Shown piece after piece: positions 25,695 through 45,761 of a DNA stretch of 64,000 bases. Each line of letters starts with the position of its first letter. The stretch's first letter is position 1. The stretch is from Candidatus Gastranaerophilales bacterium (lineage in GTDB: Bacteria; Cyanobacteriota; Vampirovibrionia; Gastranaerophilales; Gastranaerophilaceae): the NCBI GenBank assembly GCA_944322725.1, contig CALUPU010000001.1, positions 124,001 through 188,000 of the forward strand, given 5' to 3'. The translations under genes and the position numbers were made by a program. The notes beneath the pieces were generated by a model. It saw only the letters and a program-made list of their open reading frames with translations, was not told the origin of the DNA and did no database searches.

Positions 25695-26447
25695 ATGTGT
25701 CCAAATAGTGAAATTCCTAATGAACAAGGTGAAGCAAAGCAAAAGATTTTAATTGCAGACGATGAAGCCAGTATCAGAAGAATCCTTGAAACAAGACTCA
25801 GTATGATAGGCTATGATATTGTTACTGCAGCAGATGGTGAAGAAGCTGTTGCTGTATTTAATAAAGAAAATCCTGATTTAGTAGTTTTAGATGTTATGAT
25901 GCCTAAAATGGACGGCTACGGCGTTTGCAGAGAAATCAGAAGAACATCAGATGTTCCTATTATTATATTGACTGCTCTCGGTGATGTTTCTGAAAGAATC
26001 ACAGGTCTTGAGCTCGGTGCTGATGACTATGTTGTCAAACCGTTTAGCCCTAAAGAACTCGAAGCACGCGTTAAATCCGTTTTAAGACGTGCAACAAACA
26101 GAGAAATAGCACCTTCTACAGGTAAAGTAACTAAAAACGTTATTACAACAGGAAATATAAAAATTGATACTGCAAGAAGACAGGTGTTCAGAAAAAATGA
26201 ACGTATCAGATTAACAGGTATGGAATTCAGCCTTCTTGAACTTCTCGTAAACAATTCCGGTCAGGCATATTCAAGAAACGAAATTCTTCAATATGTTTGG
26301 GCTTATCCGCCGGATCACAGAATTGATACAAGAGTTGTTGATGTTCATATTTCAAGATTACGTTCAAAACTCGAAACAGACCCGGCTAATCCGGAATTAA
26401 TCTTGACAGCTCGCGGTATCGGATATATGTTCCAGAGAATCAATTAA
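25695..26447 (+). CDS. OmpR-family response regulator, RpaB-like
   Basis: A 250-residue DNA-binding response regulator. The receiver domain (17-130) has acidic ADDE (21-24), phosphoacceptor Asp66 in VVLDVMMPKMDGYG, Thr93 and Lys115 in DDYVVKPFSPKE. The winged-helix output domain spans ~147-250, with LTGMEFSLLELLV, VWAYPPDHRIDTRVVDVHISRLRSKLE and RGIGYMF. The receiver strongly resembles cyanobacterial RpaB (remembered as SIRRILETRLSMIGY and ITGLELGADDYVVKPFSPKELEAR, here cut to key words), the regulator of light and redox response. No kinase lies beside it. Start ATG 25695 with AGATAGG upstream. Confidence 0.95.
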   Translation: MCPNSEIPNEQGEAKQKILIADDEASIRRILETRLSMIGYDIVTAADGEEAVAVFNKENPDLVVLDVMMPKMDGYGVCREIRRTSDVPIIILTALGDVSERITGLELGADDYVVKPFSPKELEARVKSVLRRATNREIAPSTGKVTKNVITTGNIKIDTARRQVFRKNERIRLTGMEFSLLELLVNNSGQAYSRNEILQYVWAYPPDHRIDTRVVDVHISRLRSKLETDPANPELILTARGIGYMFQRIN

Positions 26448-34113: not shown

Positions 34114-34139
34114 ATAAAAAAGGGCTCTTTATAAAGCCC
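34114..34139 (-). terminator. Hairpin with T-run (minus strand) in the 34.1-34.4 kb gap
   Basis: GGGCT / AGCCC stem with an AT loop; on the minus strand it is followed by six T. No minus-strand gene ends close by (mlaE stops ~300 bases upstream), so it may end an mlaE 3' tail or a separate RNA. Confidence 0.65.
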
Positions 34140-34436
34140 CGTGTAAATACCTATTCCCGTTCCATTTATGTTTTAAGTTTATTAAAATCAATTAGTCCAG
34201 TTTTTTGTCTTTATTTTTGTTTATCTCTTATGTTTATATAAAGTATATAAATTTGAAATAATTGCCTTTTCAAATTTAACTGTATTTTGGAATTATTAAG
34301 AAATATTGCAAAAATTCAAAATAAGTATATACTTTTTTGAGTTTCGGCTGCCTGAAATGAAAAATTGTATATACTCTTTGTATAAAAAAATTAATTGTAA
34401 CAGATTGTTAAGGTACTGCAAATTTTGACGTGACTA
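34140..34436. other. AT-rich non-coding region with GTATATAC sites
   Basis: This ~300-bp gap between convergent genes has no credible frame. It contains AGTATATACT (34324-34333), TGTATATACT (34366-34375), an AGTATATAA half-copy (34242-34250) and a perfect 10-bp inverted repeat AAATTTGAAA...TTTCAAATTT (34249-34277). The paired sites recur at 44902-44942. It may hold promoters of a short minus-strand RNA ending at the hairpin at 34114-34139. Confidence 0.4.
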
Positions 34437-44281: not shown

Positions 44282-44656
44282 TTAATTATTTTTAGCATAA
44301 GCTGCATCACAAGAACCGCAGCAAGATTTTTCATACGGATTTTCTGCGCCCATTGCTTCTAATAATTCATAAGCATCATCACCTGATTTAACACTTGCCT
44401 GTGCAAGCTGAGGATTGTTAACGTAAAATTCCAGAGCATCCTGCACAGTTTTTATCATTTCAGGATTTTCTGTTTTCCCTGCAGCTTTAACAAGTATACG
44501 TCCGTATGATTCTGCAGCTTTAGTCCCGTCATTTAGTGACTCGATAGCGGTATTTTCTTCAGGCTTTACCTGTTGTTTAGCCTCTTCACCTTTTTTTATG
44601 CTGCGGTGATAGGCTCTGCCTGCGTTATTTATATTTACATTATCTAAGTTTGACAT
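44282..44656 (-). CDS. Hypothetical protein with C-terminal cysteine cluster
   Basis: A 124-residue soluble, mostly helical protein. Start chosen at ATG 44656 (MSNLDNVNINNAG) because GGAGAG lies eight bases before it; a longer frame reaches 44692. It is charged and helical through residues 20-105 and ends in NPYEKSCCGSCDAAYAKNN, a CCxxC cluster that could bind metal. No family recognised. It lies upstream of nadK on the same strand but ~40 bases apart, and faces the large non-coding region. Confidence 0.75.
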   Translation of the reverse strand: MSNLDNVNINNAGRAYHRSIKKGEEAKQQVKPEENTAIESLNDGTKAAESYGRILVKAAGKTENPEMIKTVQDALEFYVNNPQLAQASVKSGDDAYELLEAMGAENPYEKSCCGSCDAAYAKNN

Positions 44657-45066
44657 ATTTACTCTCCAGAAATTTTTATCGTGTCTTTTCATGCTTTAAA
44701 ACATGGACAAAAATTTTTTTGCTAGTTTTGTGAAAAAAATTTTTTTAATATATACAAATTTCTAAAAATTTTAGTCTTTTTTTGTTTTAAAGTCAAGTAT
44801 ATTAAGAAAAATTGTTTTAAGTGTGTGATATATACTTTATTAATATTTCTTAATAAAAGTATTTTATATGCAAAATTATATGTAATGTAAAGAAATGTAA
44901 CAGTATATACTCGTGTCTGCAATTTTTGATTTTGTATATACTTTATATATATGTAAGCATAAATAAACTGAAAGATAAAAACATACACAATAAACAAATT
45001 AAATAAGACGAGACTTTCACACTAACCTACCTAACTTCCTAACCTTCCCTTCCTATTAAAAGTATT
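44657..45066. other. AT-rich non-coding region with GTATATAC sites and CU-rich tract
   Basis: No credible frame. Contains AGTATATACT (44902-44911) and TGTATATACT (44933-44942), copies of GATATATACT (~44827) and AATATATAC (~44748), an ATTAAGAAA.ATTG block similar to one in the 34.3 kb region, and a pyrimidine-rich stretch (45018-45052). Confidence 0.45.
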
Positions 45067-45094
45067 GCTCTAATGAAAATTAGAGCTTTTTTTT
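44949..45094 (+). ncRNA. Candidate CU-rich small RNA
   Basis: -10 box TATACT (44937-44942) with no good -35, but the palindrome AGTATATACT is centred ~42 bases upstream of the expected start, an activator position. Transcription would run through an A-rich leader, then CCTACC, TTCCT, CCTTCC and TTCCT motifs (45025-45052) and end at a terminator at 45067-45094. The total is ~145 bases. The C/U blocks could pair with Shine-Dalgarno sequences (AGGA, GGAAGG) of target mRNAs. Confidence 0.5.
45067..45094 (+). terminator. Strong intrinsic terminator ending the candidate small RNA
   Basis: Perfect 8-bp stem GCTCTAAT / ATTAGAGC with a GAAA tetraloop, then eight T on the + strand. No protein gene on the + strand ends here, so it must end a non-coding transcript. 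Confidence 0.93.
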
Positions 45095-45129
45095 GCCTTC
45101 TTTTCTTAGCGAGCTGGAGCGAGCTAAAG

Positions 45130-45185
45130 AAAATGGCGTCACGAAAAAACAATAAATTGCCAAAGCAGCTAGGATAAAGAAATAG
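45130..45185. repeat. Direct repeat copy 1 (56 bp)
   Basis: Begins AAAATGGCGTCACG and continues through CAATAAATTGCCAAAG to AAAGAAATAG. Copy 2 at 45283-45338 differs at two positions. The copies are 153 bp apart. Upstream of copy 1 is a short tandem GCGAGCT-GGA-GCGAGCT (~45109-45125). Confidence 0.9.
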
Positions 45186-45282
45186 TGACCGAATTTTTGC
45201 CAGTGTGGAGTCGACCGCAGGGAGCGAACACGTCCTGTGAGGCAAAACCACGCTTTTGCCGAACTGCAAATAATTCGAATAC

Positions 45283-45338
45283 AAAATGGCGTCACGAAAC
45301 AACAATAAATTGCCAAAGCAGCTAGGATAAAGAAACAG
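45283..45338. repeat. Direct repeat copy 2 (56 bp)
   Basis: Same sequence as 45130-45185 with two substitutions. It ends just before the start region of the interrupted winged-helix gene. The 97 bp between the copies are GC-richer than the surroundings. Confidence 0.9.
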
Positions 45339-45347
45339 AGACAGCTT

Positions 45348-45761
45348 ATGGATGAAAAAATTAAAGTTTTAAAAATTAATACCGATATACTGTATATGAA
45401 TGAAGATAATGACGACACAATAACGTAGTATGAAACAATGGATATGTATGGTATCGAAAACGAGGATAAAGCTTTAAAAGATGTCGGATTGGAACTGATG
45501 TTTCTGACACCTGAAAAATGCAGCCATGATGACGGCATTACTGCTGTTGAATTGAGCAAACATCTTGATATGCCGCTCGACACAGTTAAGAAAAAACTTA
45601 AAATTCTGTTTGATAAAGGAATTGTACAGGTGAAAGGTATTAATCCGAAAATCTGGCGTTTTAACGAATATAACTTTCAAAGAATGCCCGAAGATGATGA
45701 GGTCTATATGCTTTTATGCAGCTTTGACGATGTTGATTTCGATAAATATTTTTCTTATTGA
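45348..45761 (+). pseudogene. Winged-helix protein gene interrupted by an in-frame TAG
   Basis: One frame runs from ATG 45348 (MDEKIKVLKINTDILY...) to a TAG at 45426-45428, then continues without shift through YETMDMYGIENEDK to 45761. The long part (from ATG 45438) is 107 residues with a winged-helix segment TAVELSKHLDMPLDTVKKKLKILFDKGIVQVKG (key words AVELSKHLDM and LFDKGIVQV). The acidic N-terminal part and the rest read as one protein, so a nonsense mutation is likely. Alternatively translation restarts at ATG 45438, but it has no ribosome-binding site. The tail overlaps tmk by seven bases. Confidence 0.65.

Follow-up and report, generated by a model that had tools for sequence, protein, structure and literature searches.

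A strongly conserved small RNA gene of gut Melainabacteria and the promoter class that it shares with other small RNA and protein genes

Candidatus Gastranaerophilales are gut-dwelling, non-photosynthetic relatives of cyanobacteria (Melainabacteria). Positions 44953-45094 of the window (the whole 64,000-nucleotide stretch of Gastranaerophilales DNA that was analysed, C1:124001-188000 of its genome) hold a unit, here termed sRNA A, that is strongly supported by genome comparison as a strongly conserved small RNA (sRNA) gene of these bacteria. The support comes from four observations taken together: (i) the absence of a conserved open reading frame (ORF), (ii) the absence of an Rfam match, (iii) the conservation of the unit and its core and (iv) compensating changes in the stem of its terminator. 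Read as a whole, sRNA A is probably a trans-acting regulatory RNA that is driven by an OmpR-type regulator, most likely RpaB, and that forms one output of a regulon found throughout the lineage.

The mechanism proposed for this reading has several steps. A promoter with a weak -35 element would depend on a response regulator of the OmpR type, for which the RpaB equivalog is the likeliest candidate. The regulator would bind a tandem HLR1-like box that lies about 60 bp before the start. Transcription would stop at the 45067-45094 terminator to release a mostly unpaired product that exposes an invariant pyrimidine core, and the core would either bind a protein or act as a seed that pairs over short stretches with several purine-rich target sites. 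A second gene copy, kept near-identical by gene conversion, would double the dose, and sRNA A would be one output of a lineage-wide regulon that makes sRNAs B-E and orphan proteins. The features are collected in Table 1.

Table 1. Positions of sRNA A, sRNA E and associated elements (window coordinates unless a genome and contig are named).
Feature	Position	Strand	Basis or remark
sRNA A, copy 1	44953..45094	+	142 nt expected; conservation and covariance model
sRNA A, copy 2	G000:C8:54010-54208	-	
HLR1-like box (GTTACATTTCTTTACA on the minus strand), predicted RpaB-type site	44886..44901	-	motif match
Palindrome AGTATATACT	44902..44911	+	31 bp upstream of second GTATATAC; possible second operator
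-35-like element GCAATTTTT (class consensus GGCAATTWTT)	44919..44927	+	alignment of related promoters
-10 block GTATATACTTTATATATAT; expected start near 44953 (GTAAG)	44934..44952	+	promoter alignment
Conserved unstructured pyrimidine region ACTTTCACACTAACCTACCTAACTTCCTAACCTTCCCTTCCTA	45013..45055	+	alignment A3; largely unpaired in fold
21-nt invariant core CTTCCTAACCTTCCCTTCCTA	45035..45055	+	genome search
Intrinsic terminator: 8-bp stem, GAAA loop, T8	45067..45094	+	fold and shuffle test
RpaB equivalog, 250 aa, candidate activator of the promoter class	25695..26447	+	NCBIfam NF045944
sRNA E, own terminator	34116..34231	-	transcript conserved in same-genus genomes
sRNA E promoter, same class	34223..34270	-	R1 37.9 bits, E 3.4e-10

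The sRNA A unit, its terminator and its two loci

The initial annotation had proposed an sRNA at this place, and a re-reading of 44902-45094 finds all of the features that it named where it had put them. Its statement that the plus strand carries no protein gene is borne out: the unit is overlapped by ORFs of at least 60 aa only on the minus strand (44722-44997, 45039-45305 and 45080-45583). A coding reading of shorter frames was considered and rejected, as the AUG-led frame AUGAGACUUUCACACUAA (5 codons) of some copies starts with ACG in the window genome. The AT-rich leader between the start and the core varies in length, and a conserved reading frame is ruled out by indels of varied length upstream of the core, which break any frame. 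Rfam, searched at curated and at lax thresholds (up to E 5), yields no family for sRNA A; the lone sub-threshold match up to E 5 is a CRISPR repeat on the opposite strand. By comparison, the unit has its own promoter, its own terminator and a conserved non-coding sequence, as a trans-encoded intergenic sRNA gene does.

The terminator consists of the perfect 8-bp hairpin with a GAAA loop described initially (GCTCTAAT-GAAA-ATTAGAGC at 45067-45086), followed by eight T residues (45087-45094). Terminators of this kind occur at two sites (one hairpin, counted on both strands) versus 0.1 expected in shuffles of the region. The stem pairs covary between genera, with changes such as G-C to A-T and T-A to C-G, while no covariation is found inside the genus because the stem is invariant there. 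Of the transcript first expected (44949-45094, ~145 nt), the end at 45094 is retained, whereas the predicted start moves to ~44953, which gives an RNA of ~142 nt.

Genome comparison also upholds the proposal that the gene, with its promoter and intrinsic terminator, is kept in near relatives. A query of 44880-45110 matches all 40 genomes searched at E<=0.001, covering promoter and transcript in the same genus but mostly the promoter in the other genera of that set. The ~142-nt unit itself is present in 22 of the 22 same-genus genomes searched; absence from near relatives had been named as one of the findings that would speak against the gene. Genomes nearly always carry two copies of the unit, at two fixed loci. 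The same-genus copies align at 80-89% identity between sharp edges, from TGTAAAGAAATGTAACA upstream to the T-run downstream, and nothing alignable lies in the flanks beyond. One of the two syntenic loci adjoins the NAD kinase gene and the other adjoins ffh. Loci retrieved with the neighbouring NAD kinase belong to metagenome-assembled genomes of Candidatus Gastranaerophilales, apart from one distant Prochlorococcus match. Transcripts of the two loci are on average 96.9% identical within a genome (eight genomes; 78.7% in the window genome and 98.6-100% in the seven others), and between genomes the mean identity is 81.7% when the same locus is compared and 81.8% when the loci differ. By this comparison the two loci evolve in concert, which implies that selection or conversion acts on the transcript.

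Duplicated units of this type could also be mobile or repeated elements (MITE-like) rather than functional RNA genes, as the two near-identical copies per genome and the interspersed repeat directly behind the terminator might indicate. This origin is very improbable, given that the copies are confined nearly always to two syntenic places, that the conserved edges are a promoter box and a T-run instead of repeat ends, and that other genera keep the core, the promoter and a covarying terminator amid different flanks; the signs that would favour such an element, copies in changing numbers at unrelated places and flanked by target duplications, are not seen. The interspersed repeat (GCCTTCTTTTCTTAGCGAGC...AAAATGGCGTCACGAAAAAACAA) occupies 45095-45189 and 45283-45342, beginning directly past the T-run, and also follows sRNA B terminators at L063, L141 and L252. 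Another repeat, GCGGATTTTGAGCGG, is located behind the sRNA A terminators in L008, L047, L050 and L055.

Promoter class, upstream box and candidate regulator

The sRNA A promoter belongs to a class with a common layout: a box, ~16 bp, GCAATT and then ATACTTTATATATAT. GCAATT (44919-44924) and ATACTTTATATATAT (44938-44952) are the parts that remain constant across related promoters, and on this basis the -10 element probably lies in TTTATATATAT with the start near 44953. The initial annotation had placed the -10 box in TGTATATACT, which is found at 44933-44942, yet its TATACT is probably not the -10 element. Twelve consecutive columns (ATACTTTATATA) are invariant in an alignment of 14 promoters, and the window genome has about a dozen sites with the GTATATACTTTATATATAT block. 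These aligned sites (GGCAATTWTT then ATACTTTATATATAT, with the upstream box excluded) were used to build a core-promoter model, R1, which detects 6-16 strong sites per genome in 48 of 48 family genomes tested and also matches in G030, which belongs to a different family of the same order. By contrast, R1 at E<=1e-4 finds zero sites in 69 other genomes of the phylum, a scan with stricter filters in which weak sites may be lost; among the genomes sampled, the core promoter of GCAATT and ATACTTTATATATAT is confined to the order. R2, the covariance model built for the RNA, matches 44 of 192 genomes of the order (17 of 45 genera). R1 and R2 are built from different parts of the unit, and an R1 match stands directly upstream of ~24 of 28 sRNA matches taken from other genera. 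The promoter of sRNA A, judged by its sequence, is probably activator-dependent.

The same promoter class drives at least five sRNAs: A, B (two copies), C, D and E, of which B, C, D and E are each genus-conserved and each furnished with their own terminator. Two GTATATAC palindromes (34325 and 34367) are noted just past sRNA E, on its other side. The class promoter also precedes protein genes, including those of a 21-aa peptide (MRALLVRFLNRNKKFSPADLI), a 54-55-aa protein and longer orphan proteins, three of which have no domain by Pfam. At L065, L130, L179 and L183, the class promoter is followed first by the ORF of this conserved 21-aa peptide, in the form given or in a closely similar one.

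The box upstream of the core promoter is a tandem repeat of period 10 that in sRNA A reads TGTAAAGAAATGTAACA and, on the opposite strand, GTTACATTTCTTTACA. It is a perfect 16-nt match to KTTACAWWNNKTTACA (KTTACAWW-N2-KTTACAWW), the only one in the window (0.05 expected), and this pattern is HLR1, the site of RpaB (PMC13421787; PMC9241938). With the start at 44953, as the alignment suggests, the box spans about -67 to -52; in cyanobacteria, the HLR1 sites from which phosphorylated RpaB activates lie at about -66 to -45 (PMC13421787). Allowing up to two mismatches, the box is present in 45 of 71 non-redundant promoters versus 3.9 in dinucleotide shuffles (largest 12), and in 28 of the 54 promoters that do not drive sRNA A versus 2.4 in shuffles, the 54 having been collected by R1, a model without the box. 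Homologous promoters are not independent, such that these counts overstate the significance, but the sites other than those of sRNA A drive unrelated genes. Counted from the first base of the -10 block, most boxes begin at -47 or -48.

A palindrome had initially been assigned to the activator position. The palindrome is indeed present, but the element conserved there across genera is the HLR1-like box at 44886-44901, whereas AGTATATACT is invariant only within the genus and mostly absent from the sRNA A gene in other genera. At L060, L124, L134, L148 and L190, the promoters of unrelated protein genes likewise carry a second GTATATAC at this place or close to it, ~31 bp ahead of the -10 block; it is possibly a second operator. 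Separately, a TTAAGAAATATTAA box at 44838-44860 (minus strand) lies upstream of a sigma70-like promoter (TTGACT-17-TAAAAT, 44796-44768) that serves a divergent 136-aa ORF (44282-44692), and thus this ORF may answer to the same regulator as sRNA A.

Four full-length OmpR-type regulators are encoded in the window genome. The RpaB equivalog (L088) scores 371 bits with NF045944, the only one to exceed the cut-off of 330, and the other OmpR-type regulators of the genome score 169-217. Its gene is ~18 kb from sRNA A, inside the window. RpaB is the predicted binder of the 44886-44901 box and the putative activator from this site. The sRNA gene could be the same and the box be bound by a different OmpR-type regulator, L089 or L090, an assignment that is unlikely overall. 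It draws on the RpaB model being the best or near-best NCBIfam match for three regulators and on the many boxes of the class that are nearer to TTAAG-N5-TTAA than to HLR1 (TTAA rather than TGTAA), a divergence for which one regulator of loose specificity and two related regulators are both possible explanations. The sRNA A boxes of the genus, however, fit HLR1 perfectly or nearly so, and L088 alone passes the RpaB cut-off. Among other transcription factors, eight sigma-70 family members (L093-L100), including SigF-like and FliA/WhiG-like proteins, are noted in the 1.9-Mb genome G000.

The pyrimidine core and its candidate partners

The four C/U blocks listed in the initial annotation (CCTACC, TTCCT, CCTTCC and TTCCT) are all present, within 45020-45056. 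The 21-nt core CUUCCUAACCUUCCCUUCCUA is identical in about ten genera of its own family, differs at two positions in one more genus and has near-matches in two other families. With up to two mismatches, CTTCCTAACCTTCCCTTCCTA is found in 46 of 382 genomes of the class (11 genera by tally, all inside the order), while the reversed CTTCCTAACCTTCCCTTCCTA control gives stray single matches only in the same 382 genomes. More distant genera carry a different run of tandem TTCCT repeats before the terminator (weaker matches, 38-48 bits). In the predicted fold, sRNA A is mostly unpaired apart from the terminator and the C/U blocks lie outside hairpin loops.

The C/U blocks had been read as able to pair with Shine-Dalgarno (SD) sequences, in the manner of the CCUCC-type anti-SD RNAs of Alphaproteobacteria. 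This reading is not sustained by the pairing test: at the starts of 58 genes of the window, 299 of 300 shuffles of matched composition pair as well as the core or better, with means of -4.9 kcal/mol at gene starts, -6.0 for the shuffles and -5.1 in mid-gene positions. Because the first ATG was used as the gene start, and because shuffles may come to contain CCUCC-like runs, the test speaks against a special fitness for these sites, not against all pairing. The likeness to the alphaproteobacterial RNAs fails too, in that the host belongs to the Gastranaerophilales and the CCUCC motif is absent from the sRNA A transcript. The Rhizobiales anti-SD sRNAs SmelA075 and SmelA099 are C/U-rich as well, but present CCUCCUCCC in several hairpin loops (PMC3927594), whereas sRNA A has no such loops and no pairing advantage at gene starts. 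A general anti-SD function is, therefore, improbable, even though the C/U-rich blocks are single-stranded and AAGGAA and AAGGAG are among the ribosome-binding sites of the window.

Searches for specific partners give the following picture. Complements of the core (12 nt, up to one mismatch) outside sRNA genes are no commoner than those of the reversed pattern, and no 10-mer core complement is found at the window gene starts. A single long antisense target is rejected, since outside sRNA genes no complement exceeds the control counts. Against sRNAs B-E and the regulon mRNAs, no duplex of sRNA A is clearly better than shuffles, the best partner being sRNA E (-18.9 versus -16.1 +/- 3.1 for shuffles). 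The sRNAs B, C and D (L063, L067, L069, L140 and L176) share a ACGAGGAA-like, SD-like motif, to which the UUCCU blocks of sRNA A are partly complementary; in duplex tests the pairing does not rise above that of shuffles.

The mode of action of sRNA A remains either that of a short multi-target seed or that of a protein-binding site. The seed reading is slightly favoured by analogy with Yfr1, the ultraconserved 11-mer of which was read both ways by its discoverers (PMC2190773). In a different version, the UUCCU/CCUUCC repeats would act as a decoy that titrates a single-strand or pyrimidine-binding protein, with no mRNA targets at all. Such titration is a tentative alternative. It would suit an unstructured RNA with a core that is invariant over many genera yet has no long genomic complement, a dose raised by two near-identical copies, and divergent genera that retain only tandem TTCCT repeats before the terminator; but a candidate protein is lacking, and a strictly ordered 21-nt sequence exceeds what most repeat decoys need. 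Hfq was sought by PF17209 with none detected in 21 genomes, using a model that also misses the S. elongatus control.

Relation to cyanobacterial systems and biological meaning

In photosynthetic cyanobacteria, RpaB is a master regulator of light and redox responses; it also controls the sRNA PsrR1 (PMC13421787). PsrR1 of Synechocystis thus resembles sRNA A as a small RNA of the same phylum under RpaB control, which for sRNA A is predicted. The two differ in that (i) sRNA A has no Rfam match of any kind (Rfam may not include a PsrR1 model), (ii) Melainabacteria have no photosynthesis genes to regulate (PMC3787301), (iii) the sRNA A box is upstream at what would be an activating position, given the start suggested by alignment, and (iv) the sRNA A gene is duplicated and one of at least five sRNAs. 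The cyanobacterial Yfr1/Yfr10 RNAs are comparable as short RNAs with an ultraconserved, unpaired, pyrimidine-rich motif ahead of an intrinsic terminator, and ACUUUCACAC of sRNA A faintly recalls ACUCCUCACAC of Yfr1. Yfr1 is, however, 54-69 nt with two stem-loops around ACUCCUCACAC (PMC2190773), whereas sRNA A is ~142 nt with one conserved stem and another, 21-nt core, and is devoid of ACUCCUCACAC.

The closest regulatory parallel is the cyanobacterial RpaB/HLR1 regulon, with which the promoter class shares period-10 tandem repeats, a box upstream of the promoter and an encoded RpaB equivalog. It differs in its targets, which are orphan sRNAs and proteins, and in the distinctive promoter of GCAATT and ATACTTTATATATAT. 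Literature searches, which covered open papers, found neither a small RNA nor this promoter described for these gut bacteria. Homologues of RpaA, RpaB and NblS were noted in non-photosynthetic Melainabacteria in 2013 with their role left open (PMC3787301). One tentative proposal is that RpaB may have an older, non-photosynthetic job, namely the control through HLR1 of an sRNA and small-protein network in Gastranaerophilales, in which the core of sRNA A would act on a kind of partner not described so far. The promoter class provides a concrete candidate regulon for one of the Melainabacteria RpaA/RpaB/NblS homologues, with boxes, promoters and genes that are directly testable.
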